Below, one piece after another: positions 19,820-52,160 of a DNA stretch of 64,000 nt. Origin of the DNA: Fusarium oxysporum f. sp. lycopersici 4287 (taxonomy: Eukaryota; Ascomycota; Sordariomycetes; Hypocreales; Nectriaceae); the NCBI RefSeq assembly GCF_000149955.1, contig NC_030995.1, positions 1,860,001-1,924,000 on the forward strand, written 5' to 3'. Below the pieces are notes generated by a model that saw only the letters and a program-made list of their open reading frames with translations, did not search any database and was not told the DNA's origin. The translations under genes were made by a program, and so were the position numbers. Position 1 is the stretch's first letter; every line of letters begins with the position of its first letter.

Positions 19820-22109
19820 TTAGTGCTCGTGTGTCACGTTGTTGAGATCCCTGAATTCGCCGCGTAGGCTCTCGATTCCTTCCGCCTTGACCTCGTCGAC
19901 AAGTTTGGCCACCTCAGGGGCAATGACGTTCTCATCAAAGCCGAAGTATTTGTAGGCGTCCTTACCAGGTAGTGATTTGCCGAAAGTGGTCATTGAGTAG
20001 CCAGCATCGGCGTATCGCTCCCAGCCGTTGACGGCGTAGGCCTCAATCACAACTCGAGGGGCGTTGGAGCGGTATTGAAGAACTTGGCGTTTGTACTCGA
20101 GGGGTTGGGAGTTGAAGAGACGCTGGCAAGGGAACGAGACCACGCGTGCCTTGATGCTGAACTTCTCCTTGAGGACCTGGCGGGTCTTGACGGCGAAGAC
20201 CATTTCGGCACCGACGCCGATGAGAGTAACGTCGGCATCCTTCTCCTCGATGAAGACATAAGCGCCCTTCTGAACACCTTCGCGGCTGGAGTACTCAGGG
20301 TACTGCTCGAGGTTCTGACGGGAGAGGGAGATGATAGATGGGGTGTCCTTGGCCTCGAGGGCGGTAATGAAGGCACCGGCCGTCTCTTCGGTATCGCAAG
20401 GTCGGATGTAAAGGAGGTTGGGCATGGAGCGGTACAGAGCAGGGAGAGCAATTGGTTGGTGGGTTGGGCCGTCTTCGCCAGTACCGATCGAGTCGTGAGT
20501 GGCAATGTGGATGGCTTGGAGGTTCTGAAGAGCGCCCATGCGGACACCGGGAGCGGCGTAGATGTAGAACATGAAGAAGCTGGAGGTGACAGGGAGGATC
20601 GTGCCCTTACCATAAGCGGCGAGACCGTTGGAGATGGAAGCCATCGCATGTTCGCGGATACCCCAATGAATGTACCGACCAGAGTAGTTGCCATTGATGC
20701 CGCAGGTGGTCTTGAGGTCGGGCTGTTACTGTGTTAGTGACAGGCTACCGGTTGTGTCAAAGGGGAACTTACATGCTGGAAGTCAACCTTGTCCTTCCAG
20801 ATCATGTTGACAGAGGGTGACAGATCAGCTGTACCGACCATGAAGTTCTTGAGTTTCGCAGCCAGAGGGTTACAGATGATACCGGCAGACTTTCGGGAAG
20901 GTGTAGGAGCAGTAGGGAATGACTCCTTGGCAGGAATGATGCTTCGCCAGTCATCAGTAAAGCGGCCCTCGACACGCTTCATGAACTCCTCATGAAGATC
21001 AGGGTACTCCTTGCTGTAGGCATCAACAAGACTCTTCCAATCCTCGACGAGGCGGTCACCACGAGTCTTGCGGTCGCGGAAGAAGCTGTAAACCTCATCA
21101 GAGACGACGTAATGCTTCTCAGGGTCCATGCCGAAACGCTCCTTGACGGCCTTGACACCATCGGGGCTGAAAGCGGCACCGTGGGCTTTCGCATCACCTG
21201 CAACCTTGCTACCGACTCCAATGATAGTGTGAATGTTGATGAAAGTGGGCTTGTCGATGCTGGCCTTGGCTTTGAGGAGGGCCTTGACGATACCCTCGAC
21301 ATCGAAACAGCCGTCCTCGACCTCGATAACCTCCCAACCACAGGCGCGCATCTTGGCGTTGACGTCCTCGGTGTTGCAGAGGTCGACACTACCGTCGCAG
21401 GTAATCTGGTTGTTGTCATACATGACAACGAGGTTGTTGAGCTTCCAATGGCCAGCCAGTTGAATAGCCTCAAGGGCGACACCCTCCTGTAGGCAAGCAT
21501 CGCCGATCATGCAGTACGTCATATTGTTGACGAGCTCGTATTTGGGCTTGTTGTAAGTTGCCGCAAGGTTCTTGGTCGCCATGGCGAGGCCGACAGCATT
21601 GGCAATACCTTGGCCAAGAGGACCGGTCGTCACTTCGATACCCTCATGCTCAATCTCAGGATGACCGGGCGCCAATGAGTCGTAGTTGGATGAGTGGTAG
21701 GACTTGAGGTGCTCGAAGGTCATGGCTTTGTAACCCGTGAGATGAAGGAACGTGTACTGGAAGAGGCATGTGTGGCCGTTGGAGAGGACGAAGCGATCGC
21801 GGTTGAAGTAGTCAGGGTCGTTGGGAGAGTACTGCATCACATACTTCCAGAGAGCGAGGCCAATGGCTGCCATACCCATGGCACCTCTATAAGTCAGTCA
21901 GTAAATGCCATTCTCTTGTCCTTCGATGCTGGTGAAGCTTACCCAGGGTGGCCACCCTTGAACTGCTCGCAAAGATCAGCGATCAAGCAGCGAAACTGTC
22001 GCAGGGCAAGATCAATTGTCTCTGCATCATCGTTCTTGATCAACTTGATGACGTTGGAAAGAGCTACAGGTTCTTCCTGTGTCTCTGGGGTGATTGCGCT
22101 GGGTGCCAT
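19820..22109 (-). CDS. Dihydroxyacetone synthase-like transketolase
   Basis: Three exons on the minus strand: 22109–21943, 21886–20773 and 20722–19820, giving 727 residues. The ThDP-dependent transketolase fold is clear: GGHPGGAMGM, NRDRFVLSNGH, TTGPLGQGIANAVGLA, the ThDP-binding stretch IGDACLQEG … YDNNQI (about 184–215), REHAM and THDSIGTGEDGPTHQP. The GDA (not GDG) in the cofactor motif, FNRDRFVLSNGHTCLFQY and KSYHSSNYDS agree with dihydroxyacetone synthase (formaldehyde transketolase) of methylotrophic yeasts rather than with housekeeping transketolase. The reaction known for that family is xylulose-5-phosphate plus formaldehyde to dihydroxyacetone plus glyceraldehyde-3-phosphate. The C-terminus NNVTHEH lacks a peroxisomal PTS1 signal, so it is likely cytosolic. 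It is divergently transcribed from the SDR gene and near a dihydroxyacetone kinase. A different acceptor aldehyde is possible. Confidence 0.88.
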
Positions 22110-23088
22110 CTCGGACTGGATCTGTGACTCTGTGATGCTCTTACAAGACGAGTAGGTGATGAGTGCAGCTGAGAAACATCGACAGTGCCTCTTGAGTTAT
22201 AGATATTTCGAAAAAGCATCTTTTGCGCGTGATCTTTCTCATAACGACGATGATGTTCGTTGTGCCCATAGCGGACCGGGTTACCCCAACAGGGCAGGGG
22301 AAAGCGCCGTGGGGATATGTGCGTTTGCCATTTGACGTGGGGTTCTTGATGAATTTGACATTATTTGGGTTGAGTGAGGATTGAGTTCTGGATCAGGAAG
22401 TTGGAGGCACCAGATCACGGCTTTGCCTGTTGAGGTTAGAGTTGAGATTGCGCTTAGAACTGCCATGGACTTGATGCTTGGGGTACACACCATGATAGTG
22501 TGGAGAAGGGTTGCAATTACCTGGGTGACGGAAATACTGCTGAGTTTAGTGCATTGGCTGTAATAAATGTTGTACAACTCTGGGTATCTGCATTCGCGAC
22601 AGAGACTGCTAGGTGAAAGAAATAACGGGACTTGCTTGTAGAACTGAAAGCCAACAAAAACAAAAGGGCAGTTCAGGGGCTAAGACGTGGTGGAGACACC
22701 CTGGTATTTGTGTCTTGACAAACAGCCGACCAGACCTTTTTGTCCCCCCTCTTTCAGCCTGGAAATACTGTATCTTAGCGAAAACCACGACTGTCGTATT
22801 GATATGTGACAACTTCCGGCTACAATTACCTCGTCGAATCAACCAGGAATAAGTCTTCAAAACCCAATTCGAGACACATCATTCTTCGCATCGACCTTCC
22901 ATTTGGACGCCACGACGGTAATGCTTGGCTCAACATGTCTTCGGCGCCTCCAGAAATGGATATCCGTCGATGGTATATCCTGACGAGCTTGCGTCTCCAA
23001 AACTCCTCTATCCCGGCAGCTTCGATCCTTTTCTTCAATTACCATTCTTTTACGACCTCGTTGATACCCATACAACTTCACCATCACA
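22110..23088. promoter_or_regulatory. Shared divergent promoter region of the transketolase and SDR genes
   Basis: A 979-bp stretch separates two start codons facing away from each other, so both promoters must lie here. No gene was found in it. The arrangement would allow joint control by one bound regulator, such as the Zn2Cys6 protein encoded at 31531. Specific sites could not be assigned from sequence alone. Confidence 0.5.
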
Positions 23089-24021
23089 ATGGCTCCCGCT
23101 ATCGTTTCCGACATTGAGCTCCCGGCCCATGTGCCCGAGACCAGAGAAACACCCGCCTCAAAAGCATCAACGTCCAAGCTCTTCTCTCTGGAGAACAAGA
23201 CTGTCGCTATCACAGGCGGAGCTCGCGGTCTGGGTATCACACTTGCCATTGCTGTCGTCGAAGCCGGCGGTAGCGTAGCTTGCCTCGATATTCTCGAGGA
23301 GCCATCACCAGCTGAGTGGGCACAGCTCAACAAGATCGCCACAGCCAACAAGGCTTCTGTCTCATACCGAAAATGCGACGTCACAGAAGAGCAGTCCGTC
23401 GAGACAGCGATGAAGGAGATCGCTGCTGAGGCTGACCAGTCTGGAGCGCCTTTCTGGGGAACAATTGCTTGTGCCGGCATCCAGCAACAAATTGCTGCGC
23501 TGGACTACCCAGCTGCCGACTTTGACCGTATCCTACGAGTCAATGTAACCGGTGTTTTTAACACTTGCAAGTATGCTGCACGCGTTCTGCGAGAGAAGAA
23601 CAGCCCTGGAAGCATCGTCATTATTGGAAGCATGTCAGGCAATATTGCTAACCGAGTAAGTCCTCAAAACATCACCAAGCATACCCAAAAAGCTAACAAG
23701 AAACAGGGCCTCTCTTGCACAGCTTACAACTCCAGCAAGGCTGCTGTTCAGCAAATGTGTCGATCGGTCGCTCAAGAATGGGGTCAGTACGGTATTAGAG
23801 TCAACACGTTGTCTCCCGGATACATTAGAACTGCCATGACGGATCAGTTGCTTCAAGAGAACCCTGAGGTTGAGAAAACATGGATGGCGGGTGCGTTGTT
23901 GGGTCGCCTTGGTGCCCCTGAAGACTTCAAGGCCCCAGCTGTATTCCTGCTGTCTGAGGGTGCTTCCTTCGTTCATGGAACGGATTTGAGGGTCGATGGA
24001 GGACATTGCGCATCTGCATGA
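23089..24021 (+). CDS. Short-chain dehydrogenase/reductase of the polyol/ketose type
   Basis: Two exons, 23089–23655 and 23707–24021, giving 293 residues. The 51-nt intron (GTAAGT … GCTAACAAGAAACAG) is a multiple of three without a stop, so an unspliced frame also stays open; removing it restores the standard GSMSGNIANRGLSCTAYNSS. The Rossmann motif is TGGARGLG (42–49). The catalytic Ser (181 or 183) and YNSSK (Tyr196, Lys200) are present, as are RVNTLSPGYIRT and the C-terminal VDGGHCASA. The IIGSMSG and RVNTLSPGYI segments resemble fungal D-arabinitol 2-dehydrogenase, L-xylulose reductase and sorbose reductase-type SDRs. It probably interconverts a polyol and a ketose with NAD(P)(H); the exact substrate is not readable from sequence. 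Confidence 0.88.
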   Translation: MAPAIVSDIELPAHVPETRETPASKASTSKLFSLENKTVAITGGARGLGITLAIAVVEAGGSVACLDILEEPSPAEWAQLNKIATANKASVSYRKCDVTEEQSVETAMKEIAAEADQSGAPFWGTIACAGIQQQIAALDYPAADFDRILRVNVTGVFNTCKYAARVLREKNSPGSIVIIGSMSGNIANRVSPQNITKHTQKANKKQGLSCTAYNSSKAAVQQMCRSVAQEWGQYGIRVNTLSPGYIRTAMTDQLLQENPEVEKTWMAGALLGRLGAPEDFKAPAVFLLSEGASFVHGTDLRVDGGHCASA

Positions 24022-24428
24022 TTGATTAGAGCGTTCGTTAATATGAGAAACTTTACGATTTGATTGTGGGATGCCCCAGAAACGTCAAACTGTCCGAGGG
24101 ATCTACTGATTGACCGCCCATTCCAGTACATTCAGAACGGAGACCGTTGCTAACGAGCGCCCGAAAGCCATCTTTGTACCCAATTAAGGCCGCATGAAAC
24201 GAGATAAAGTTATTTACCTCATTGAGCTATTCAAACGCCAGCTGACCTTAGTGTATGGCGTCCACACTGCCACCACCAAAATCATGGCGCTAATTCAGCC
24301 TCTGGTGTGAGTCGCGGAAGCCTTGCAAGGTTGTTTCAGTAATTTGGCTGCCTCAGCTGAACCCATATAAAACGAGACAACTACCCATATCTTTGTGCCA
24401 TTCAATCAATAACATCACATCAATCGCA

Positions 24429-25754
24429 ATGACCTCTATAGCCCTCTCAGAAAATGCACACAAGGCGCTGGAGCCTTTGCACCTCCAAGATCGTATCATC
24501 GGTACCATTTTCGGCTCAGCGCTTGGAGACGCAATTGGCTTATACACAGAGTTTCTGTCTGCCGACATCTCGGCAAAAGCATATCCCGACCGCAAATTTA
24601 CGTTGCTCCCTGCTGAAAAAGCGACACCTTTTCGACGCGACCATCACAGAAATTTCCATCGTACTGGAGAATGGACTGATGACACCGACCATGCTGTTCT
24701 GATACTGCTTTCATTCCTCCACAGCGATGGCAAGAAGCTTGATCCACAAGACTTTGCTTCAAGACTGTCAGTTTGGGTGCGTATGGGACTGAGAGCGCTG
24801 GATACCCTGCCTCTTGGTCTTGGACGTACAGTCGGTGGAATTGTGCGCAGCAAATCTTACTTAAACGATCCTGAGGGCACAGCACGAAATTTCTGGGTGA
24901 CGGGGAAGTACAATGCTGCGCCCAACGGAAGTCTGATGAGAACACATCCGCTGGGGCTCATGTGTCTTACCAAGTCCGTTGAGGAGACCTTTCAGGTCGC
25001 GGCCGACTTCTCTGTCGTTACACACGTTGATCCCAGATGTGTGGTCTCTTGCGCCATTGGCACGGCTCTTGTTCGTGGCCTTGTCCTCGGCGAAGTCTAC
25101 GAAGAGCGACATGTCGATGAGTTGATCGAAACTGGCCTCACGTGGTACAACGAGCGTCGCGAGAAAGAATTGCAGGATCCAGACAAGAAAGACGAGCCTC
25201 GCCTGGACGTTGAAGAGTTCAAAAAGCATGCGACAGCTCAATCTCTCGCGGACCTCAAGTTGGATGAGAGCTACAAGATCGGATACGTTTACAAGACATT
25301 TGGCTCTGGTATCCTGCTTCTTCGACTAGCACTGCGCCAACTCAAGTCTTCTGGACAACTATGCTCCCAGCTTGCCATCTTTGAGAAGCTCATCACCGAT
25401 CTGACGATGGAAGGCGGCGATGCAGACACAAACGCTTGCTTTGCCGGCGCTCTTCTAGGAGCATTGCTTGGATACAAGTCCTTGCCTCCACATTGGCGCG
25501 ATGGTCTCCGTCATGGGACATGGCTTATGGAGAAGTCTGAAGGACTGTGCGACGTGTTAGGCGTGACGAAGGGTTCATACTTCGGGTCGCGGGACAAGGA
25601 TACTGCGGAGGATGGTGGGCGTGGGTTCTTGACGGATGCACAGATGGAAGAGAAGTGTATGAGGATGCAGGCTTGGATGGCACAGGAGGAAACTGAATGG
25701 AAGAAGAAGCAAGAAATCGAGAAGAAGAAACCCAATTGGTTTCCTTGGAAATAG
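24429..25754 (+). CDS. ADP-ribosylglycohydrolase (DraG/ARH) family protein
   Basis: Single-exon gene of 441 residues. ATG at 24429 (context CGCAATGACC) is the first in-frame ATG; the frame continues 12 codons upstream only through a TTG. The family signatures are visible in order: FGSALGDAIG near the N-terminus, the metal-binding TDDTDHAVL, the central NAAPNGSLMRTHPLG, and MEGGDADTNACFAGALLGAL, whose Asp residues complete the dinuclear Mg site. The C-terminus is a charged tail ending NWFPWK. Family members remove ADP-ribose from proteins or cleave related glycosidic bonds. It lies between an SDR and a sugar transporter in a cluster that looks metabolic, so a role on a sugar-nucleotide or ribosyl compound is as plausible as protein de-ADP-ribosylation. 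Confidence 0.88.
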   Translation: MTSIALSENAHKALEPLHLQDRIIGTIFGSALGDAIGLYTEFLSADISAKAYPDRKFTLLPAEKATPFRRDHHRNFHRTGEWTDDTDHAVLILLSFLHSDGKKLDPQDFASRLSVWVRMGLRALDTLPLGLGRTVGGIVRSKSYLNDPEGTARNFWVTGKYNAAPNGSLMRTHPLGLMCLTKSVEETFQVAADFSVVTHVDPRCVVSCAIGTALVRGLVLGEVYEERHVDELIETGLTWYNERREKELQDPDKKDEPRLDVEEFKKHATAQSLADLKLDESYKIGYVYKTFGSGILLLRLALRQLKSSGQLCSQLAIFEKLITDLTMEGGDADTNACFAGALLGALLGYKSLPPHWRDGLRHGTWLMEKSEGLCDVLGVTKGSYFGSRDKDTAEDGGRGFLTDAQMEEKCMRMQAWMAQEETEWKKKQEIEKKKPNWFPWK

Positions 25755-25996
25755 TGGTTGGAATGATACTTTGTAGCCTTTTTATGGCATCTGTTTGACT
25801 GCTTTTAATCACCGGGATTATGTTACAGTTCCTGCTCTGTTAAACCGATGTAAACAATGACCTTGGTATTTGAGAAGCCGATAGCATATATAATACAGTA
25901 CTAAATGATCATAAATTCAACGTCATATTGACCATGATTCAACATAAGCAGAGGTATAACAGGCCCCTTTTCGTCCAACCCAGGTCCTCCAGCATT

Positions 25997-27813
25997 TTAC
26001 TCCCTCATATGGACCTCAGCCTCAAACTTCTCATTACTCTCAGACTCCCCAGTTTCACCACTGGCGCTCTTCTCAGAAGCCTCTCCAGGAACACCCATGC
26101 TGTGATCCCAATGAAGCAAGACCTTTGGACCAGTGAAGAGCTTGTCGATCTGCTCGAGAGACAATAGTCGGGTCTCGGGATAGAAGAAGTAGATGAGGGG
26201 AACGAAAAAGGCGTTGAAGATACAGAAGTAGATGTACGTCTTCCAGCCAATACTTGAGATGGACACGGGAGTGATCTCAACGACGAGGAAGGTGAAAATC
26301 CAGTTGGAGGCTGTTGCGAGGGCGGCGGCACGGGTTCGAATGGCCAGGGGAGCGTATTCGGCGGGCACTTGACTCTGTTAGCTGGGCTGGTTCTGGAGGC
26401 ATTGAAGTGGGTTGACTTACAGAGCCAGGGGATGGCGAGCAATCCGACAGCAAAGAAGAAGTCTATCGTTGAGTTAGCTAAGTTCTTTATCTCTCAGGGG
26501 CTGACTTACTGAACAAGAAGAGCATGACTATGGCGACAATACCAGGTCCAGGCTGCCCAGTAGACACAGTTCCGGCCAAGACCGCCATGCAGACTGCTTG
26601 ACCAGCGGCGGCAAACATCATCAACTTGCGGCGACCGAGACGATCGATGATCCAGATGGGGATAAGCGAAGAGAAGAAGTAGGCGACACCATTGAAGCCA
26701 GCAAGTAGGAGACTCAGGTTATGGGAAATGCCGACTGACTCTTGGAAGATGACGGGGGCGTACTGTAACTTGGTGTCAGTCGCTTGAGGTTTGATGGATT
26801 GAAACTTCTATTCAATTGACTTACGTATGTGATGAGGTTGATACCGGAAAGCTGTTAGAAGAGCGTGTTAACCAAACCTGATCGAGAAGACGATGCGAAG
26901 ATTCTTACCTGTTGCATGAACTGTCCGCCGATACCAAGCATTGTTCGATACAAGAACTTCTGCTCTCCATTCTTCCACATAGCCTTGAAACTGCTCGTCT
27001 GCGCCGCCTCGCGCTCCTCATTGATAGCATGCTGAATCTCAGCAATGGCACGGCTGACAGTCTCATCGTCCTTGGAGATAGACTTGGCATCTCGGCGCAC
27101 CGCCCAAAGAACCTCGCGTGCCTCGTCGTGAAGGTCATGGTTGATGAGCCAGCGAGGGGACTCGGGAAGAAGAACGATTCCGATGAAGGTTAAGATGGCA
27201 AAAAAGATCTGGAAGGCAAGGGGGAAGCGGAACTGGGCGTCATTGCTGACGTAGGACATGCCGTAGTCAACCCAGTATGAAAGCATGACGCCGAAGATGT
27301 TGATTGCGAGTTCAATGGCGAGGCCCTTGCCACGGTTGCTGGCTTTCATGAGTTCAGAGTGCCAGACAGCTAAAGACTGTTAGTTGAGATCTCTGATAGA
27401 GTCAGGGGCAACTTACGAATGGTACTGGTGTTCATGCCGTTTCCGAGACCAGCTACAATACGGCCAACGATCATCTGAGGGATTCCGAAAGCTGATGCTT
27501 GAAGAGCGGCTCCGATGCTGAGAACAACACAGCCCATCATGATACACTTGCGACGACCAAAGTACTCGCCAAAGATGAGACAGAAGATGGCGCCGAAGAA
27601 GCAACCGATCTCGTAAATGGCGACCACGGTTCCTTGAAGAGAAGAACTGCCATTGCCTCCATCTGTAGTGTCGATCTCGGGAAAAGTGTTGGTGAATGCA
27701 GTACCTGTCAACAGGCCAGACATAACACCCTGATCATAACCGAAGAGGAGGAAGCCAGAACCAGCCGTAGCCGTGATGGCCCAGTCCAAGGGCCTTCCAA
27801 CAAGGATCGCCAT
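25997..27813 (-). CDS. MFS sugar transporter (hexose/polyol porter type)
   Basis: Six exons on the minus strand: 27813–27417, 27369–26909, 26851–26825, 26762–26510, 26462–26421 and 26367–25997, giving 516 residues. The protein begins MAILVGRPLDWAITATAGS and shows the sugar-porter signatures: GYDQGVMSGLL in helix 1, FGEYFGRRKCI between helices 2 and 3, VGRIVAGLGNGM, LPESPRWL after helix 6, DRLGRRKLM in the second half and PETRLLSLEQID after helix 12. About 12 membrane segments are expected. Exon 3 is only 27 nt (LSGINLITY) and exon 5 only 42 nt. The last intron appears to use a CAAG acceptor 11 nt after a CTAAC branch point, because nearer AGs break the frame. It is likely a plasma-membrane proton symporter or facilitator for the sugar or polyol used by the neighbouring enzymes. 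Confidence 0.88.
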
Positions 27814-28940
27814 GATGAAGAATTTGATGAGAAGTGAAGAAAACAGAACAAGCTATTCAACAACCAATGTTGATGCTATCAGCAACAGTAAAAGATGGGG
27901 CGACTCCATATCAATATATACTGCCTCTGAAGTGACAATTCGGCGGCGAGAAAATTAGATCAATTGTTGACTCGCGCAAAACAAGGTTCGTTCCAAGGCC
28001 GTGACATGGCGCCAGTTCCCCATGGGGAGTCCACTGTACCGTAACATTGGATCATCTGGGGTTTTTGCGGGTTAGACGAACGGTTTCGGTTTTGAGAGAA
28101 GTGAGGCATTTGCAAGCGCTGGAGTGAATATGGAGCATTTAGGCAACCGAATTCAGGGATGAGGTTCCTGGGTTGCCCTGTTTCTGCGAAAGAGTGAATT
28201 GTAGCCGATGGAATGATACGATAATTTGTCATTGAAGATGAATGGCTTAGCGAAAACACCTGTGCATTGCAATCGATGTTGTAGTGGAAGACTTGTGGTA
28301 TTCTCAGGCGGGATAAGGTAGTTGCAGTATGTATGCCTAAGCGTAGGTCCCCTCGTAGGTGCCCTCCTGATGCAGCCACAGACAATAAGGTAGTCAATTA
28401 TTTGTGCAACGAACTAAGAGAAAGGCTTTGATGTCGGAGAAGACAAACACACCAACTCTCGAAATTACTCAACTGATCAAAGAAAAAGCGTGGTTTTGAT
28501 GTTGGAGCAGTTGGATGCTTGTCAAGGTCCGCTTAGACCTACCAAGATCGGCTGCAAGTCGGAGTTCCCCTCCCCATCTCCACTCCTTACTGCAACACCC
28601 CAGAATGGGTAATGGAGTTTTTGTTAGAGACGACACTAAGTCGCATACAGATGCCCTACACCTTACGCATTGTATACTCTCCAAGGGTGCGTATACTTCC
28701 CTTATCCGATTCGTTGTGAGATATATTCAAATGGCTGTTTGATGTTTTGCTGACACTATCGCGAAAAGAATAATGATCATGGTCGGATTAGGAATCTGGG
28801 AACGCTCTGCAGGAACCATAAGATAAAGATGCCATGAGGTATCAAAGACGAAGGACTGGCAAACTCCCTTTTGTTTGGACAAGTGTTGGCGCTTTGTGCG
28901 ACATCGACACCATAGCACACGACAAACACTCCTCAAAATC
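27814..28940. promoter_or_regulatory. Divergent promoter region of the transporter and dihydroxyacetone kinase genes
   Basis: A 1.1-kb region separates the start codons of two genes facing away from each other. Short open frames are present on both strands but none is convincing. As with the transketolase/SDR pair, this layout favours joint control. Confidence 0.5.
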
Positions 28941-30997
28941 ATGACACTAGGTATGCGCTTGTGGAAGCAAGACGAGCCAGTTGTTGACCAAAAACCTCAG
29001 GAAAGAGCTTCATCAATGGCGTCGCCAACTCAGTCGAGCGAAGCCTCAGGAGTTGCATTCTCCACGACCCATCGTTGAGTCTCGTCGCATCAGAGAAAGG
29101 TGATATGATGACCTGCAACAGCAAGCAAGACTAGACTGACAGCCGCTTTAGTTCTTTATCGACGAATGGACCAAAGCAATGACAAAGTCATCCTCATTTC
29201 CGGCGGAGGCTCCGGCCACGAACCCGCGCACGCAGGATACATCGGCGAGGGAGCATTGGACGTCGTGGTCGCTGGCGAGATCTTTGCCTCCCCTTCCGCT
29301 TCACAGATCCTCACAGGCCTACAGACTATCAAGTCGTCAAAAGGGTACGCCTATGCCCCATAGGGGTCGAGTGTCTGGCTAACCAGTGGTAGATCGTTGA
29401 TGATCGTCAAGAACTACACAGGTGACAAGCTCAACTTCGGCCTCGCAGCAGAAAAGGCAAAGGCAGACGGAAAGAAGGTTGAGATGATTATTGTTGGGGA
29501 TGATGTGTCAGTTGAGGGAAACACGCTTGTTGGTCAGCGTGGTCTTGCAGGAACAGTCTTCTGCCATAAGATCGCTGGCGCAAAGGCAGCTCAGGGGTAT
29601 GCATATCCATCATACTGACCAAGCCAAAGCTTACCTCCTTTACACAGAGCCTCCCTCGAGCAAGTCGCCTCCACTACAAGAAGAGCCGCTTCGCAAATGG
29701 CCACCGTCGCAGCGAGTCTCGATCGATGTAGTGTTCCCGGACGGGCGATTCAAGAAGCCCTTCCCCATGGCCAACTCGAATTCGGAATGGGAATACACAA
29801 CGAGCCGGGTGTCAAGCGCGAAGAAATCTCGAGCCTTGAGGTTACAGTTGAGAAGGCATTGAGTATGATGTTCACTCCCAAGGCCAATATGTGGCAACCA
29901 GAAAGGGGGCAGTGTGTAGCTTTGATGGTCAATAACTTGGGCGGCTTAAGTGTCTTGGAGATTAGTGTTGTTGCAGACGAGGTGGTAAAGCAACTGGTCG
30001 AACGCGGCATACATATCGAAAGGAGTCTTGTTGGCACTTTTGTTACGTCGCTCGATGGCCCTGGATTTTCTGTTACACTGTTGTCACTTGACGATGAGTT
30101 GACAGAACTGCTTGATGCTCCCACTACCGCACCTGCTTGGCCACGTTCGATTCACGGCTGGGCAACAGATATGGAGTCTGTATCAAAGCGTGAGACAACA
30201 ATTCCTGTAGCGAAGGGCAATGGCAAGGAGACGGGAGTAAAGGGTATGTTGAAGATGAAGCGATCTGCCAACATCAAACTGATCATTCGTAGTGCCGACA
30301 TCACTTGTCAAGGTTCTCATTGAGTCAGTGGCACGAACAACAACGAGGGATGAGCCAAAAATCACAGAATACGACACCCTGGCTGGCGATGGAGACTGTG
30401 GAGAGACGCTTCTGAATGGAGTAACTGGTATGTTCCCACCGAACCTCATCAATTGAGATACAGCAATGTTGATACCGTCTACGTGCAGGTCTTGTTAAGG
30501 AGTTCGAAAACGACGACGCAGTTTCCCTTGACATTGGCCAAGTCTTCCGACGAACAGCGGCAACCGCAGAAAGGAGCATGGGTGGCACGTCGGGCGCCAT
30601 CTACGCCATTTTCCTCAACGCTGTAGCAAACCGACTTTTACAAGTGACTGCCGAGTCTCCATCGCTAACGGTCTCCGAGTTCATACAACAAGCTCTGCAG
30701 GGCGGCTTAAGCGAGCTTTGCAGATACACACCCGCGCGTATCGGCCATCGCACACTAATGGATGCACTTATACCATTTGTCAAGAACTACTACCTGGATG
30801 GCTCACTAAGGGCTGCTCTGGTAGAGGCGCGAAATGGTGCTGAGAGCACACGGCGGATGGTAGCGGCCCTGGGACGGGCGAGCTATGTTGGACAGGAGAG
30901 GTTCGATGAAGAGGGCGGTATTCCTGACCCTGGAGCTCTAGGTGTTGTGAGCATTCTCGAAGGTCTTCGCGATGGATTAGATACTCGAGCCAATTGA
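28941..30997 (+). CDS. dak1: Dihydroxyacetone kinase
   Basis: Seven exons: 28941–28950, 29001–29099, 29152–29344, 29393–29596, 29648–30243, 30293–30427 and 30489–30997, giving 581 residues, normal for the family. The N-terminal DhaK domain has [15 protein letters not shown], the glycine-rich [15 protein letters not shown] (52–66) and GIHNEPG, whose His219 corresponds to the residue that binds dihydroxyacetone covalently. The C-terminal DhaL domain has [10 protein letters not shown] (398–407) for ATP-Mg binding and [12 protein letters not shown]. The enzyme phosphorylates dihydroxyacetone (and usually glyceraldehyde) to DHAP with ATP. The first exon is only 10 nt, but the joined start MTLGKSF agrees with known family N-termini. 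The C-terminus DTRAN is not a peroxisomal signal. Its partner in the cluster is probably the dihydroxyacetone synthase-like gene at 19820. Confidence 0.93.
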
Positions 30998-31530
30998 GGT
31001 GATTGGCGCAGTCGGCAATTGGATGGAACTGTTTCTTCGCTTCAAGTTCCTGGGGGATATCTTTATCCTGATGATGATGATGATGGTCTAGCCGAGTATA
31101 GTCAAGGCAGACCAGGATGAAGAGCACTGTCCACCCACTAAAAGAACGCCACACTGCCTTTCCAGAGCACACAGGGCAATTGTAAGCGGATGTGAACTAA
31201 TCCCAGTTCAGGAATGTTTCGAGTTGAAGACTTGTTTGTCGGGGAACCAGCAAAGACTCGCTTTTTTATTCATTTCAGCATCAATTACTTGCAAATTAAT
31301 AGATCATGTCAGTATTTTAGTTCCCTCTAACCGTTTTATGGAAAAATTGCCGATCACGAGTCTGTTTTGGTATGGCAGGTCGGACCCCAGATTCTGGCGT
31401 CTACAATTGCCCTGCCCCTCCAACTTTTGGACATCTTCACTCTCGCCTTCACTTTCATCTCCACTCGTTCTCCCAATAGGTCATATCACCAATTCTCACC
31501 CGGAATCCCAATCCCGGCTACAGTTGACTT
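30998..31530. other. Intergenic region with a short (ATG)5 repeat
   Basis: This 530-bp stretch follows the kinase and precedes the regulator gene. It contains five ATG units at 31071–31085 and a C/T-rich part just before the regulator start. No gene is supported. Confidence 0.55.
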
Positions 31531-33553
31531 ATGGACCGTCCCTCCGCATCCCGGGCCCGAGTCCGGTCCGAACCCATCAAGCATAAGCGGACCCGCTCCG
31601 GGTGTCTCAATTGCAGACGGAAGAAGCGTAAATGTGATGAGAGTCGGCCGGCCTGCGGAACGTGTCGTCGTCGCAATGAGTCTTGCGAATGGGGTCTCAA
31701 GATTGCGTTTCGAGCCGAGCATGCTCAATGCTTAAATGCGCGGCATCCTTCGATGAGGAAGATGGCGAGGAGGAGACAGCCGAGGGAGTTTGAGATTCTG
31801 GATGTGACGGATGAAGTCATTCGTGATTACAATGGTGCTGAGACGGAGGAGGAGGATAACGAGACTAGTGATGATCATGCGCGGGCAAGCACTTCTGGTA
31901 TGAACTTGATCTGCATCATGGGTCGTGTGTAGATCTAACATTCTTCTAGGTCGCTCAAATCTCATCGTCGGTGGAAGACCTCGCGCCGCAAACAATACAT
32001 CAAGTGGCTATGTCTCTATACAGCGAGCACCGGTAGTCGATATCTCATCACCGACATCACAGCGCCAGACCGAAAACGCCGTAGCCGACCTACTTTATTT
32101 CAGCCAAAACGGGCAATCTCATTCCTCAGTCGACATTGATCCTGCTCTGCAGGTTTCCATGGAGGCGATCCCAATTGACATGATAACAGACTATCCGTAC
32201 ATCGACCAGATGCAAGCATTTACCCCTGAGGGCATCTCCGAGGACGGTATCTTCTTGCCAGGCTCTGCGTACCACGAGTTACACTCGACACTCCGTAATC
32301 ATCTCATCCAAGAGACGCGGTCAATTGCTCCAACAAGATCAACAACGCCGCATATAGAGGTTGAAAGCTCAGGGGGCGTCTCCTTGGAAGAAACCGAGGT
32401 CACGATCCCAATACAAGAGTTTCAGCCCTCACAGACACTACTGCTCTCTCAGCAAGAGGAATGCTCGCTATGGAAGAACTACTTTGATGAAATTGCCCCC
32501 TGGCTCGACAAATTCGACCGAGACCGCCATTTCCAGCAGATTATTCCTACAATGAGTAAAGACAACGACCACTTACGATACTCGATGCTGGCACTCTCAG
32601 CACGACAACTCGAACTTAAGCATACACTACCGACGAATCGTAGCCTCGCCCTCTATCAAGAAGCCATTCATATGCTCCTTCCACATTTGCCGACCCGCGG
32701 AACAGCTGTTATCGCCACCTGTGTTATCCTTTGCGTGCTGGAGATGCTGAGCTGTTCACCAAAGGCCTGGCAACGCCATCTTGATGGCTGTGCGAGTCTC
32801 ATGGAAGCTGTTGGCATCAATGGATTTGTAGGAGGGACAGAGCAAGCCTTGTTCTGGTGCTTTGCGCGTATGGATATCTGCGGTGGACTCATATCGTCTG
32901 TCAAGACTCTCATTCCTATCTGCCATTGGGCCTCCAAGACGTTATCTATCGAAAACGATGTCGAGCTCTTCAAGAATGCTCCAACGTTTGAGGACTGGGC
33001 TAATTATGCTGTGTATCTCACCGCTCAAGTCCTGGATCTGTTAGCTGCCTCCCCTACTGATCCAACTCGCGATGAAGCCAAGTTTCGGACTCGATGGCTC
33101 AAGTTGTGGAAGTATATCTCTGAATGGTACCAAGAACGCCCAGCTCCATTGCATTCCATCATGACGATCCCTTCGAGCGAGTCATCCCCGTTTCCGACGA
33201 TTTTGTATTCGAACCCTGCTGCCATGTCAGGGAATCAAATGCATCACGCAGCATCGATTCTTATGCTACAGAACCAGCCATCGACAGTACGACTAGGCCA
33301 TGCTTCCAAACCAAGAAGTATCCTCTGGCATGCAAGACAGGTATGTGGCATAAGTATGTCGAATGAGCATCACGGTGCCTGGACGAATAGTGTGCAACCG
33401 CTGTGGATTGCTGGTAGATGCATGAGCCATCCAAGTGAGCATAAAGCGATCTTGGAAATGTTGGACCGGATCGAAAGGGAGAGTGGATGGAGTACAAAAT
33501 GGAGAGTCGACGATCTGAAAGAATTCTACAAGTGCTCCTTGTCAACTGTATGA
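31531..33553 (+). CDS. Zn2Cys6 transcription factor (Fungal_trans_2 type)
   Basis: Two exons, 31531–31897 and 31950–33553, giving 656 residues. The DNA-binding binuclear zinc cluster has cysteines 25, 28, 35, 42, 45 and 52 (GCLNCRRKKRKC … ACGTCRRRNESC), flanked by basic residues. An acidic linker follows. The C-terminal regulatory region has the helical signature of the Fungal_trans_2 group, including the late segments HARQVCGIS, GAWTNSVQPLWIAG and SHPSEHKAIL. It sits at the edge of the six-gene metabolic block, in the same direction as the kinase, and is the obvious candidate for a pathway-specific regulator; this is inference from position. A GTATGT near 33340 could be read as a donor, but the uninterrupted frame there matches the family, so no intron is called. 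Confidence 0.9.
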
Positions 33554-35898: not shown

Positions 35899-36680
35899 AT
35901 GAAGTTCACTTCTGTTCTCCTCGCCGGCCCAGCTCTCGTTGCTGGAAGATATCTCAGTGACGAGGTCACCTCTGGAACTTCGACTCACTACGGCGGCAAT
36001 GTTTCTGGAGGCAACTGTGGCTTTGTTTCCTACACGATTCCTTCTGGCATCTATGGCACTGCTTTCTCTGGCCCCAACTGGGACAATGCTGGAGTCTGTG
36101 GTAGCTGTATCGAAGTCACGGGCCCAACCGGCAAGAAGATCAAGGCGATGGTGAGTACCCTTATGGTCTGATGGTTTGTGAGGCGAGCTGATGTATCTTG
36201 CTCTTAGATCGTCGACAAGTGCAACGAGTGCAACAAGGGTCACTTGGATCTCTTTGAAAATGCCTTTACTGCTGTTGGCGGTACGAACGGCCTCGTTCAG
36301 ACCAGCTGGAGACTGATTTCGTGCGATATCACTACACCTTTGGTCCTGCGTAACAAAGAAGGTGAGTTGGCAACATGCTCTGCTCTTACCGCACCCCAAG
36401 TTCAACAGCTAACGCTATCTTAGGCACAAGCGCCTACTGGTTCAGCATGCAAGTCCGCAACAGTAACCTCCCCGTCAAGAGCCTTGAAGTTAGCACCAAC
36501 AGCGGAAAGACATGGACCGGAACGACTCGACGTGACTACAACTTCTTCGAGAACCCCAGCGGTTTCCTGGTCGATACTGTCGATGTCAGAATCACCAGTT
36601 CCACCGGCAGCACCATCATCGTCAAGAACGTCGGAGCCAAGCCTTCAACTGAATACCCAGCCAGCGGCAACTTTGCTTAA
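35899..36680 (+). CDS. Secreted expansin-like protein
   Basis: Three exons, 35899–36150, 36208–36361 and 36424–36680, giving 220 residues. A signal peptide (MKFTSVLLAGPALVAG) is followed by a double-psi beta-barrel domain: STHYGGN, GNCGF, AGVCGSCIEVTGPTG and VDKCNECNKGHLDL, with the acidic VDxC motif of this fold. The C-terminal third (from about 137) resembles the second expansin domain: YWFSMQVRNSNLPVKSLEV and a WTGTTRRDYNFFE segment with exposed aromatics. Such proteins loosen cellulose and other wall polymers without hydrolysis. In fungi they act on plant walls or on the fungus's own wall. The two-domain layout and length match microbial expansins; the substrate is not known. Confidence 0.87.
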
Positions 36681-48471: not shown

Positions 48472-48564
48472 TGCGGTTTATGTGGATCGAACACATGACC
48501 TTCAGATATCAATTGATTGAAGTTTGACTTCAGTCTGACGCTCTCCCAACTGAGCTAAACCCGC
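48472..48564 (-). tRNA. tRNA-Phe (anticodon GAA) with a 20-nt intron
   Basis: The minus strand reads GCGGGTTTAGCTCAGTTGGG, then an anticodon arm with CTGAAGA loop (GAA), a 20-nt intron right after position 37, the rest of the anticodon stem (TCTGA), a T arm GTGTTCGATCCAC and acceptor strand AAACCGC plus discriminator A. The A box and B box internal promoter elements are intact and the anticodon and T stems pair fully. In the acceptor stem, base 5 (G) faces A at position 68, a mismatch; the standard partner would be C. The intron position is the usual one for eukaryotic nuclear tRNA genes. Confidence 0.88.
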
Positions 48565-49777
48565 TTGTTGAATTCTTGTCAATTATTGCAACTCATGACC
48601 ATTCAATTTGAGGCATTGCTCCGCAGACGATTGAAGAAAGGCGACGGAGAGATGGCATTTCCAGCCAGGAGCCCAGCGTCTGTCGCTGTTCTGCCGCTCA
48701 TCGAACTCTACCTTATTGCCCAAAGTTAATTGGTCGCTTGGAGGATGTGTACAGTGAAAGTCAATTCAAGCTCTGCCTCTCTCCTCTGATTTGCAGATGA
48801 TGTTACGCAGACAACCATCAACAGCATCGTATCAGGAGACTAGCGAGTGAATCGATTTGGCTATAGTAGCACACGACATGAATCTGGGAACTTTCTTTTC
48901 CTCGTATGGAGCGGCAAAGCTCACTCCCCGTCCTTGATGATATGATGCTGCCTCATGAAGTGCCTTGTGTTGAGCCTCCTGAGCTATCGAATGTGGGTGC
49001 CTTGTGCGGGAGCTGGGCGAAGTAGGGCTGAAAATGCAAGAGGTGTAGACAAAATAATACAGGTAACTTCCGAAGCACAAGCCTAGTTATCACTGTCAGT
49101 TTGATCATCTTGGGGCCTCTTTTCTTTCAGCTACCTGCACTTGCCAAGTGGGGCCATGTTAGGCAGAGGCCCAAGCTTCCTTAGCGGGTCCGGGGAGGAG
49201 TCAGGACTTACAGGGGCCCCCACAGGGGCTTTTGAGCTGTAAGTCCTAGGCCAAGGGATGGGATGGGATGGACGGCAAACATCACCTCACTTTGATTCTG
49301 GCCACTGAGATCAACGTTTCAAATGATGCACGTAACACAACCAACAATCATGCATTGATAGACATCACTTTCTTGTTATTTGTCTCCCGTCTTTCAAAGT
49401 AATGACCAGTCAGAGGTCTATCAAGCTACAATTGGCGGGTCATGGCTATGTCTTTACCCAACAACCAAGACGCCTTTTTGCGGACTGCCTTTACATGTGC
49501 CTGTGCATGCAGCTTCACCTGCTGCCGCAAGCAATGGCTGACAATGGCGTCAAGGCCAACGGTGAGGCAGCAATGGCACCAGGCATCAGCAAGTCCTAAG
49601 CTATCGGATTGGATCCCATCCCTGCCAATCCTGTCCTTGGAAGCCAAAAGTCGGCTGTATTTACTGTGATTTACTGGCGCTGGATCTACACTCTAAGCCC
49701 AGGCTTGTTTTATCTTCTCTTTCTCCCCTGCTAGGACGTTTTTGAATTTTAATCAGGCACCTCATCTATTGTCAAAT
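48565..49777. other. Intergenic region
   Basis: A 1.2-kb stretch between the tRNA and the AAA ATPase gene. Open frames are under 85 codons and not recognisable. The last few hundred bases are probably promoter and leader of the ATPase. Confidence 0.5.
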
Positions 49778-52160
49778 ATGACCCGCCTTCCGCCTCCTCC
49801 TCTCAGGCGATACTCATCCTCCACCATTTCATCATCCTCCTCTTCCTCCTCCTCCACCCGATACGCCAGAAGATCTCGGTTCAGCATGCTCGAAAACGTT
49901 GGCGAAAACATTTCTGACATGGCATGGAAATGGAAGTACAAGCTTCTCCATCGCAAGAAATCCCCTCTCGATGAGCCACTTGATCTTGAGAAAGAGTACA
50001 AGGAGGAGGAGCCCGAGGAGATAAACAACAAAGATCCGTCGTTTGGTGCCGACACCGTCATACAAACCCTCTACGAGGGAAAGAACTCGGACCCTGCAAG
50101 GAATGATTGGGACTGGCAAGACTTCCCACCCAAGCAAGTGTCCAAGGCCATTGCCAAGGCTCGAGACCGTGTTGCCATTAAGGTGTACAAGATCAAAGAC
50201 ATCCAGAAGGGCGCTATCTCAAACCGATACCCTCTCAAGTACCACCAAGTCGATGTCCAGAACCCTCTTCTTGTTAGCGCAATCGAGCCTATCCTGAAGA
50301 AGGAGAACCTCCATCTCGATGTCCATGATACCGCGGTCTTCAAAGAGCCTTTCCGCCCTCTGTGGTTCTGTCAAGATGAGATCCGAGACTTGTATCGCAA
50401 TACCAAGCAGGACGACCCGCTGAAGGGATATCTGCAACTGTTCCTCAGAGTTCTTGATGAGATCTTCCGCGATCTCAAGATCAAGCGACGGAATTTGCTT
50501 GACAAGGATCTCATTGACTTCCGAACGGCCTGGACTCTATTCCCCAGGGACTCTACAGCCTACAGCTATGGAATGAACTCCGAGTTCATTGCAAAGGTGG
50601 ATGGTACGGAGTACGACACCAATGAAGGTGTCATGCAGCTCGTCCTGACGGCCAAAGTCATGGCTTTCAATGGCGAGGAGTTCATCTGGAGGAAGAAGTC
50701 GCTTACGATCAACGAGTTCGCTGGAAACAAGCCCATTCGTGACCTTCGCCATTACCCTTTCGAAAGGCATCCAGAAAAGGATGCTATTGAACAGCGCTTG
50801 GTGTCGCGGGGCCGCAAAGTTCTTGACCTACAGGGCTTGACGTACTGCTCATACAACGGCATTGCTCTGCACCCGGGAGAATCTGGCGTTGAAAAGCATA
50901 ACGTGGAGTGTCGTATCCTAGTCGATGTGGTCGGATATAACAAATACCACCTTGCCCAAGGAAAGCGCGAAAATAAGGACCCAGAGATCGAGGTGGTTGA
51001 TGTATCGCGCCGCCGCCGTAGACAGGATCTCGCCGACGCCAAGCCTGAAGGCAAACACCCCAAGACACAGCAGAAGAGGCTCAATGAGGAGGATCAGACC
51101 AAGAACAGAGAAGAGCTTCTTCAGAAGCCCAAAGAGCTTGCATTCATGACCGAGCTGATTGGTGGATACGCCTTGAAGAACAAGCTCTGGGGTGAGATCA
51201 CTGATGCCTGATGTTCTGTGCTTGTGCTAATAATTTATAGTTTATTTCTATGTCGAGGATCTTGAGCCCATTGTCTGGAACGATCAAGCGTATTCCCACC
51301 TCGTCTTTGACGAACAGCAAAAGGATTTAGTGCTGTCGTTCGTTGAGAATCACAGCCTTGCCAACGGCGCCAAAACGGCTATGGAAGATGTAATTGTCGG
51401 CAAGGGCCAAGGTCTCATCATGCTTCTGTCTGGTCCTCCTGGAACAGGAAAGACCCTCATGGCCGAAGCGATTGCGGATCGCACCCATCGTCCTCTCTTC
51501 TACTTGCAGGCTGAGGATCTGGGTATTAATGCTGCCGCTCTGGGTGCAAACATCAAGCGAGTGTTTGAGATGGCTACGGAGTGGAACGCTGTCATCCTGC
51601 TTGACGAAGCGGACGTCTTCATGGCAGAGCGTAACCCCAATGACATTCATCGCAATGAACTTGTCAGCATCTTTCTTCGCGAGCTCGAGTACTATCGCGG
51701 CATCATCTTCCTCACCACCAACCTGTACCATACCATTGATACTGCGTTCCGCAGCCGAGTCAGCTTGCATCTCCTCTTCAAGTCTCTCACTCGTGAGGCT
51801 CGCGAGACCGTTTGGCGCAAGTTCCTCCAACGTCTGCCTGACAGTAACCGCATCACAGATGTCACGGACGAATCTCCTGCCACGGGTTCCACCACGCCTA
51901 GGAACGACGGCACAGACGAAGATGCTGGAGGAGAGATCACCGCAACCTATGAAGACAAGCCGCTCGATGACGAGGACATTGCAGAATTGTCACTCTGGCA
52001 ACTCAATGGACGAGAGATCAAGACAGCTGTCAAGATGGTGCGCAGCTGGTGCGATCACAAGGGGTATATCATGACGCTGTCGCGGTTGGAGAATGGTATC
52101 AAGGTAACGAGCCCGCATTCGAACAAGGATGGCGATGTCGATAAGGATCTTTACGAGTGA
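49778..52160 (+). CDS. AAA-family ATPase with fungal N-terminal domain
   Basis: Two exons, 49778–51191 and 51241–52160, giving 777 residues; the 49-nt intron (GTGAGA … TTTATAG) joins in phase 1. ATG 49778 is used because the frame upstream is open only through non-ATG codons. A Ser-rich basic N-terminus (poly-Ser at about 16–27) precedes a large domain of about 350 residues typical of fungal stand-alone AAA proteins (LWFCQDEIRDLYRN, SYGMNSEFIAKVDGTEYDTN, GLTYCSYNGIALH). The AAA module has Walker A SGPPGTGKTLMAEA, Walker B AVILLDEADVF, sensor 1 IIFLTTNL and arginine-finger region DTAFRSRVSLHL. After it comes an acidic insert and a small helical lid (LNGREIKTAVKMV). It probably remodels protein complexes; the specific partner is unknown. 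Confidence 0.9.

Follow-up and report, generated by a model that had tools for sequence, protein, structure and literature searches.

The erythritol cluster of Yarrowia lipolytica (EUF1, EYL2, EYK1, EYL1, EYD1) contains, as far as the cited passages describe it, a dihydroxyacetone-kinase-type (Dak-type) kinase, a dehydrogenase and a regulator, and is served by an inducible bidirectional promoter (PMC5992420, PMC9835291). In bacteria, a D-apiose pathway (aplK, aptA, aptB) combines a kinase with a transketolase, and the portion of that study drawn on here hypothesises that two oxidoreductases take the place of an isomerase in Escherichia (PMC13001218). We describe a six-gene cluster of Fusarium oxysporum f. 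sp. lycopersici 4287, located at 19820..33553 of a 64,000 nt stretch (C10:1860001-1924000, hereafter the window, to which coordinates refer unless a contig is named) of the 61.2 Mb genome, scanned as 71 contigs. A dihydroxyacetone-synthase-like transketolase and a dihydroxyacetone kinase lie here together with a short-chain dehydrogenase (SDR), an MFS sugar porter, a Zn2Cys6 regulator and an ADP-ribosylglycohydrolase-like protein (ADPRH). The cluster is real, conserved and dihydroxyacetone-linked, and is a variant of the known fungal polyol clusters.

As in fungal erythritol clusters, including that of Yarrowia as far as described, the Dak-type kinase, a polyol-type dehydrogenase and the regulator are found together. 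However, isomerases of the TIM and RpiB types belong to the Yarrowia cluster, which in the passages cited above has no transketolase, with the Fusarium cluster showing the reverse: neither isomerase type is present beside the window Dak kinase, the one RpiB found being on contig C4 and the one TIM on C5. Identity as an erythritol cluster was rejected, since that RpiB sits with another Dak kinase on C4. The pairing of a transketolase-family enzyme, with intact catalytic residues, and a dihydroxyacetone kinase also resembles the xylulose monophosphate pathway of methylotrophic yeasts, but the Fusarium cluster differs from that system in holding a Zn2Cys6 regulator along with a sugar porter and an SDR. 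The methylotrophic-yeast enzymes are peroxisomal according to the cited part of PMC6918578, whereas the Fusarium transketolase carries no peroxisomal targeting signal (PTS1). In the bacterial apiose pathway, within what the cited text covers, the transketolase takes two genes and aplK serves as the kinase, whereas in Fusarium a Dak kinase accompanies a single full-length transketolase. Literature text searches turned up no description of such a cluster among the matches listed, and no paper was found to mention ADP-ribosylglycohydrolase alongside both dihydroxyacetone synthase and dihydroxyacetone kinase. A F. verticillioides transcriptome cluster with a transketolase C-terminal domain is, from the relevant extract, a different cluster (PMC10512309).

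Gene content and layout of the cluster

The six genes are as follows.

19820..22109, minus strand: transketolase-like (dihydroxyacetone-synthase-like) protein, 727 aa; exons 22109-21943, 21886-20773, 20722-19820; Pfam PF00456, PF02779 and PF22613; TIGR00232 at 687.4 bits, only just over the cut-off of 682.25
23089..24021, plus strand: SDR, 293 aa; exons 23089-23655, 23707-24021; PF13561/PF00106
24429..25754, plus strand: ADPRH, 441 aa, single exon; PF03747
25997..27813, minus strand: MFS sugar porter, 516 aa; exons 27813-27417, 27369-26909, 26851-26825, 26762-26510, 26462-26421, 26367-25997; PF00083; TIGR00879 sugar-porter subfamily at 319.5 bits (cut-off 237.8)
28941..30997, plus strand: dihydroxyacetone (glycerone) kinase, 581 aa; exons 28941-28950, 29001-29099, 29152-29344, 29393-29596, 29648-30243, 30293-30427, 30489-30997; PF02733 and PF02734 (Dak1/Dak2); glycerone-kinase equivalog TIGR02361 at 614.1 bits (cut-off 574.95); best PDB match 26vk
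31531..33553, plus strand: Zn2Cys6 regulator, 656 aa; exons 31531-31897, 31950-33553; PF00172 and PF11951

An earlier note, made from the sequence alone, had assigned these six families, and all six proteins exceed the Pfam cut-off of their family, with intact spliced models that lack internal stops. Splice sites were set by consensus and open frame, transcripts not being used, and for two introns of the kinase alternative splice sites likewise preserve the frame. The curated-model scan (TIGR equivalog/subfamily) covered all genes except the regulator, and its TIGR02361 score, with the Dak1 and Dak2 domains, bears out the identity of the kinase, which shares 99% identity with a protein of Fusarium oxysporum NRRL 32931. 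The gene models also agree with the arrangement first proposed, of two divergent pairs plus two genes with nothing unrelated between: the order is transketolase/SDR (divergent), ADPRH, MFS/kinase (divergent) and regulator, no further gene was recognised inside, and the cluster limits, 19820 and 33553, are the stop-codon ends of the two outermost genes.

Linkage of the cluster genes in other fungi

Linkage was read from shared contigs and locus tags in the best-120 lists of three protein searches (transketolase, ADPRH and kinase). Strains were paired by eye, leaving out entries without a name and species found only under differing assemblies or strains (e.g. F. lateritium, F. nematophilum, Talaromyces marneffei, Purpureocillium lilacinum, Akanthomyces lecanii and Aspergillus fumigatus), and linkage was termed strong when locus tags were near or the contig was <100 kb, and weaker on a larger common contig. 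In 11/12 comparable strains the transketolase and kinase genes are on one contig, six of these cases being strong, either by tags (Cosmosporella Fc.00g071100/071140, Pseudogymnoascus verrucosus VE01_01891/01890, Chaetomium olivicolor 5132/5135 and Arthrobotrys megalospora 005143/005145) or on small contigs (Eremomyces, 37 kb; Sporothrix curviconia, 72 kb). The five weaker cases lie on contigs of 0.9–6.2 Mb (Dactylonectria estremocensis, Aulographum, Lophium, Phlyctema and Talaromyces islandicus). The linked strains span five classes of Pezizomycotina (Sordariomycetes, Leotiomycetes, Dothideomycetes, Orbiliomycetes and Eurotiomycetes), the Eurotiomycetes case being a weaker one. Since this linkage couples the transketolase to a dihydroxyacetone kinase, dihydroxyacetone is likely to be the common intermediate. 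Arthrobotrys megalospora has a second kinase of the same type elsewhere.

ADPRH and kinase share a contig in all nine comparable strains, six of which are strong (Fusarium sp. DS 682, F. austroafricanum, F. zealandicum, Neonectria ditissima, Cosmosporella and Stylonectria). Transketolase and ADPRH do so in 6/10, with Cosmosporella and Cylindrodendrum as the two strong cases, and are unlinked in Aphanocladium, Lecanicillium, Cordyceps javanica and Paramyrothecium. The Cosmosporella tags (100, 120, 140) leave space for one gene per gap, consistent with the window order. Two Purpureocillium lilacinum entries have an SDR (69–70% identical) followed by ADPRH (64–67%) in one protein of 685–708 aa, and in one F. 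verticillioides entry the regulator (95%) comes after the kinase (92%) within a single predicted protein, both orders matching those of the window. The P. lilacinum protein may be a real fusion, or neighbours merged by gene prediction. A scan of genome contigs for bacterial relatives gave two matches, remote, among 207 candidate stretches. Much of the co-location noted at the outset is conserved in related fungi, by contigs and locus tags.

Shared words in the divergent promoters

Two sequence words, selected post hoc after inspection of the sequence, are shared by the two divergent promoters, which lie 5.5 kb apart, and one of them recurs near the regulator.

22774..22785, plus strand: word CTTAGCGAAAAC, transketolase/SDR promoter
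22817..22827, plus strand: word CGGCTACAATT, transketolase/SDR promoter
28197..28207, minus strand: word CGGCTACAATT, MFS/kinase promoter
28246..28257, plus strand: word CTTAGCGAAAAC, MFS/kinase promoter
31398..31408, plus strand: CGGCTACAATT with one mismatch, kinase-regulator intergenic region
31515..31525, plus strand: CGGCTACAATT with one mismatch, directly upstream of the regulator start

The spacing between the words is 43–49 bp in both divergent promoters, and the orientation of CGGCTACAATT relative to CTTAGCGAAAAC differs between them, which argues against simple duplication. Genome-wide there are five exact copies of CTTAGCGAAAAC (reversed-pattern control 5) and eight of CGGCTACAATT (control 18), and the calculated chance of two of five random sites falling within 5.5 kb is ~0.002. 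In dinucleotide shuffles, a pair of common 11-mers 11–80 bp apart in both promoters arose in 8/3000, and one common 12-mer in 350/3000, so that the 12-mer alone is not significant. At one mismatch or fewer CGGCTACAATT has 627 sites in the genome (reversed control 831), and a match with one mismatch was reached in 2/300 random 533-bp stretches of the window. The regulator promoter has no CTTAGCGAAAAC (best 4 mismatches), the region upstream of ADPRH has neither word (best 4 and 3 mismatches), and the clusters on C13 and C4 described below have no convincing copies.

These patterns suggest that the cluster is probably co-regulated. As its promoter has neither word, ADPRH stands apart, and the remaining five have the look of a single regulon, to which ADPRH would be a looser companion. 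The earlier view of six genes in one pathway therefore holds in part: the shared words suggest a regulon, but ADPRH lacks them and is unlinked from the transketolase in four of ten strains, and the cluster may be five genes plus one. The same two observations on ADPRH would fit a set of neighbours with loosely related roles and no single pathway; we consider this quite improbable, given that the transketolase-kinase linkage recurs in five classes and that two rare words are common to promoters 5.5 kb apart.

Related clusters in the same genome

Three further Dak1 loci were found in the genome. At one of them, C4:4630780-4638300, the Dak kinase is joined by an SDR, a class II aldolase, the RpiB and a regulator with a PF11951 domain, and this locus looks like an erythritol cluster in the Yarrowia sense with the aldolase in place of the TIM-type isomerase, for which no partner was found in this cluster. 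In the part of the Verticillium dahliae report cited here, RpiB, Dak kinase and TIM have consecutive accessions (PMC10778863). The kinase neighbourhoods on C5 and C9 showed no comparable cluster. At C13:145000-167400 a transketolase paralogue, 45–72% identical to the window transketolase depending on the matched stretch, is accompanied by two SDRs and a class II aldolase as well as by a sugar porter, a GMC oxidoreductase and a PF11951 regulator. A second transketolase-like copy on C13 appears decayed. That the C13 locus is a methanol cluster was rejected, the tested GMC exon matching cellobiose dehydrogenases only (E 6.3e-4 and 1e-3). As C4 and C13 hold similar gene families, one set of parts is reused in several clusters of this fungus.

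The combination of Dak kinase, SDR and PF11951 regulator on C4 recalls a route in which the window kinase would act on a tetrulose or other ketose made by the SDR, with the transketolase feeding the pentose phosphate pathway and no dihydroxyacetone intermediate; the Yarrowia Dak-type kinase EYK1 acts on erythrulose, according to the cited passages (PMC5992420). This route appears unlikely, as the erythritol-type RpiB accompanies a different Dak kinase on C4, and as the window kinase, the one Dak kinase scored, passes the glycerone-kinase equivalog.

Transketolase, SDR and ADPRH

The transketolase is 70–90% identical to its best 120 homologues, with which it was aligned, and yeast numbering was obtained by alignment to the yeast enzyme. 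The equivalents of yeast R359, S386, H469, R528, H103, H263, D382, E418 and H481 are kept in 121/121 sequences, D477 in 120/121, H69 in 119/121 and H30 in 113/121; R359, S386, H469 and R528 we take to be the phosphate-binding set. With these catalytic and phosphate residues kept, the window protein is by its alignment a complete transketolase-type enzyme, which a sugar phosphate would still fit. Positions 120 and 127, corresponding to yeast R94 and R99, are His in 121/121 and Ile/Leu/Phe in 118/121, respectively, and these substitutions of the clade lie near the active-site histidine H103. A structure prediction (mean pLDDT 72) had low confidence around the active-site residues and was not used. 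The C-terminus (HEH) has no PTS1, and no PTS1-like end was found in 119/120 homologues; the enzyme is therefore probably cytosolic, unlike the peroxisomal yeast system. No alcohol oxidase was found in the six genes or in the ten flanking ORFs (open reading frames) scanned, the rest of the genome not being searched. Lacking PTS1 and an alcohol oxidase, the cluster as predicted is not the textbook peroxisomal formaldehyde system.

A cytosolic version of formaldehyde capture would make the protein a true dihydroxyacetone synthase (xylulose 5-phosphate and formaldehyde giving dihydroxyacetone and glyceraldehyde 3-phosphate), with the kinase completing assimilation and the porter and SDR supplying the pentose that renews the acceptor. 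Several homologues do carry the database names dihydroxyacetone synthase or formaldehyde transketolase (annotation only), the xylulose monophosphate pathway has transketolase and kinase at its core (PMC6918578, as cited above), and DAS-annotated genes are up alongside FDH and ALOX in Trichoderma polysporum on oat leaves, in the extract available (PMC11121786). We nevertheless regard it as doubtful, if a more serious contender than the other alternatives: besides the missing PTS1, no alcohol oxidase, catalase or demethylase lies within the cluster, the sugar porter and polyol-type SDR are foreign to that pathway, and the GMC protein encoded close to the transketolase paralogue on C13 is, over the one exon compared, unlike the alcohol oxidases in the PDB.

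The best PDB matches of the SDR include polyol and sugar-acid dehydrogenases, and its second strand ends in an Asp, which would favour NAD over NADP, presuming that the family rule applies. In ADPRH, the motifs WTDDT and GGDADT are conserved across 25 aligned relatives, and the predicted model (mean pLDDT 91.3) has a fold that fits family structures, the structure search being led by immunity protein 6dre, MJ1187, DraG and ARH3 with 16–22% identity among the matches listed. Its scores were below the Tri1 (67 vs 490 bits) and DraG (59.2 vs 337.05 bits) equivalogs, giving no specificity group. ADPRH may hydrolyse a glycoside of the imported compound, or may be a linked bystander. Separately, a possible nst1 link was rejected: one homologue, from Purpureocillium lavendulum, bears the name nst1, and NST1 occurs in the window, but the extra N-terminal part of that protein has no match there.

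Flanking regions

The ORFs just beyond the cluster, most of them judged by eye only, gave no hint of membership. Elsewhere in the window, two short ORFs at 35899-36680 (plus strand) resemble an expansin-like secreted protein, by eye alone, and a DUF7025 ORF followed on one strand by an AAA ATPase ORF at 49742-52160 is probably a single intron-containing gene. An ARAGORN tRNA call at 48472-48564 has an unreadable anticodon and is possibly false.

Proposed pathway and its meaning

We tentatively favour, at somewhat below an even chance, an inducible cytosolic regulon in which an imported polyol or sugar is oxidised to a ketose, from which the transketolase would release dihydroxyacetone for phosphorylation. 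The MFS porter would bring in the sugar or polyol, the SDR would oxidise it to the ketose, the transketolase would split this with a sugar-phosphate partner to yield dihydroxyacetone, and the Dak kinase would convert dihydroxyacetone to dihydroxyacetone phosphate for glycolysis. The Zn2Cys6 protein would act on the divergent promoters of both pairs, and probably on that of its own gene, with ADPRH as an accessory hydrolase or linked neighbour. The intact genes, their families, the linkage and the common promoter words are observed, and we infer the enzyme order, substrate, cleavage direction and regulation. The presence of a sugar porter and a polyol-type SDR within the same gene set speaks for this pathway, and for a sugar there is also the precedent of bacterial apiose use (PMC13001218).

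Several points weigh against it. In Xylariales sp. PMI_506, the sole exception of the 12 strains, the transketolase is not linked to the kinase; many genera of the transketolase list (e.g. Colletotrichum and Metarhizium) are not among the best 120 kinase matches; and the SDR family is too broad for naming a substrate. To our knowledge, transketolase yields dihydroxyacetone only from a formaldehyde acceptor or a branched-ketose donor such as apulose, and an ordinary straight polyol therefore does not account for the kinase without formaldehyde. A route for branched sugars of the plant cell wall, of the apiose/apiitol type, would supply such a donor: the polyol would be oxidised to apulose, and the cytosolic transketolase would transfer the two-carbon end of apulose to glyceraldehyde 3-phosphate, so that dihydroxyacetone would be left for the Dak kinase. 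This specific version has in our estimate only a slim chance, and no paper combining apulose and transketolase was found.

Dihydroxyacetone-synthase-like transketolases occur in many filamentous fungi, and the cluster places such an enzyme alongside a dehydrogenase, a kinase and a sugar porter, so that an inducer of the cluster would make the role of the enzyme family testable. If the apiose-type route were true, the 'dihydroxyacetone synthase' family of filamentous fungi would gain a role that does not involve formaldehyde.

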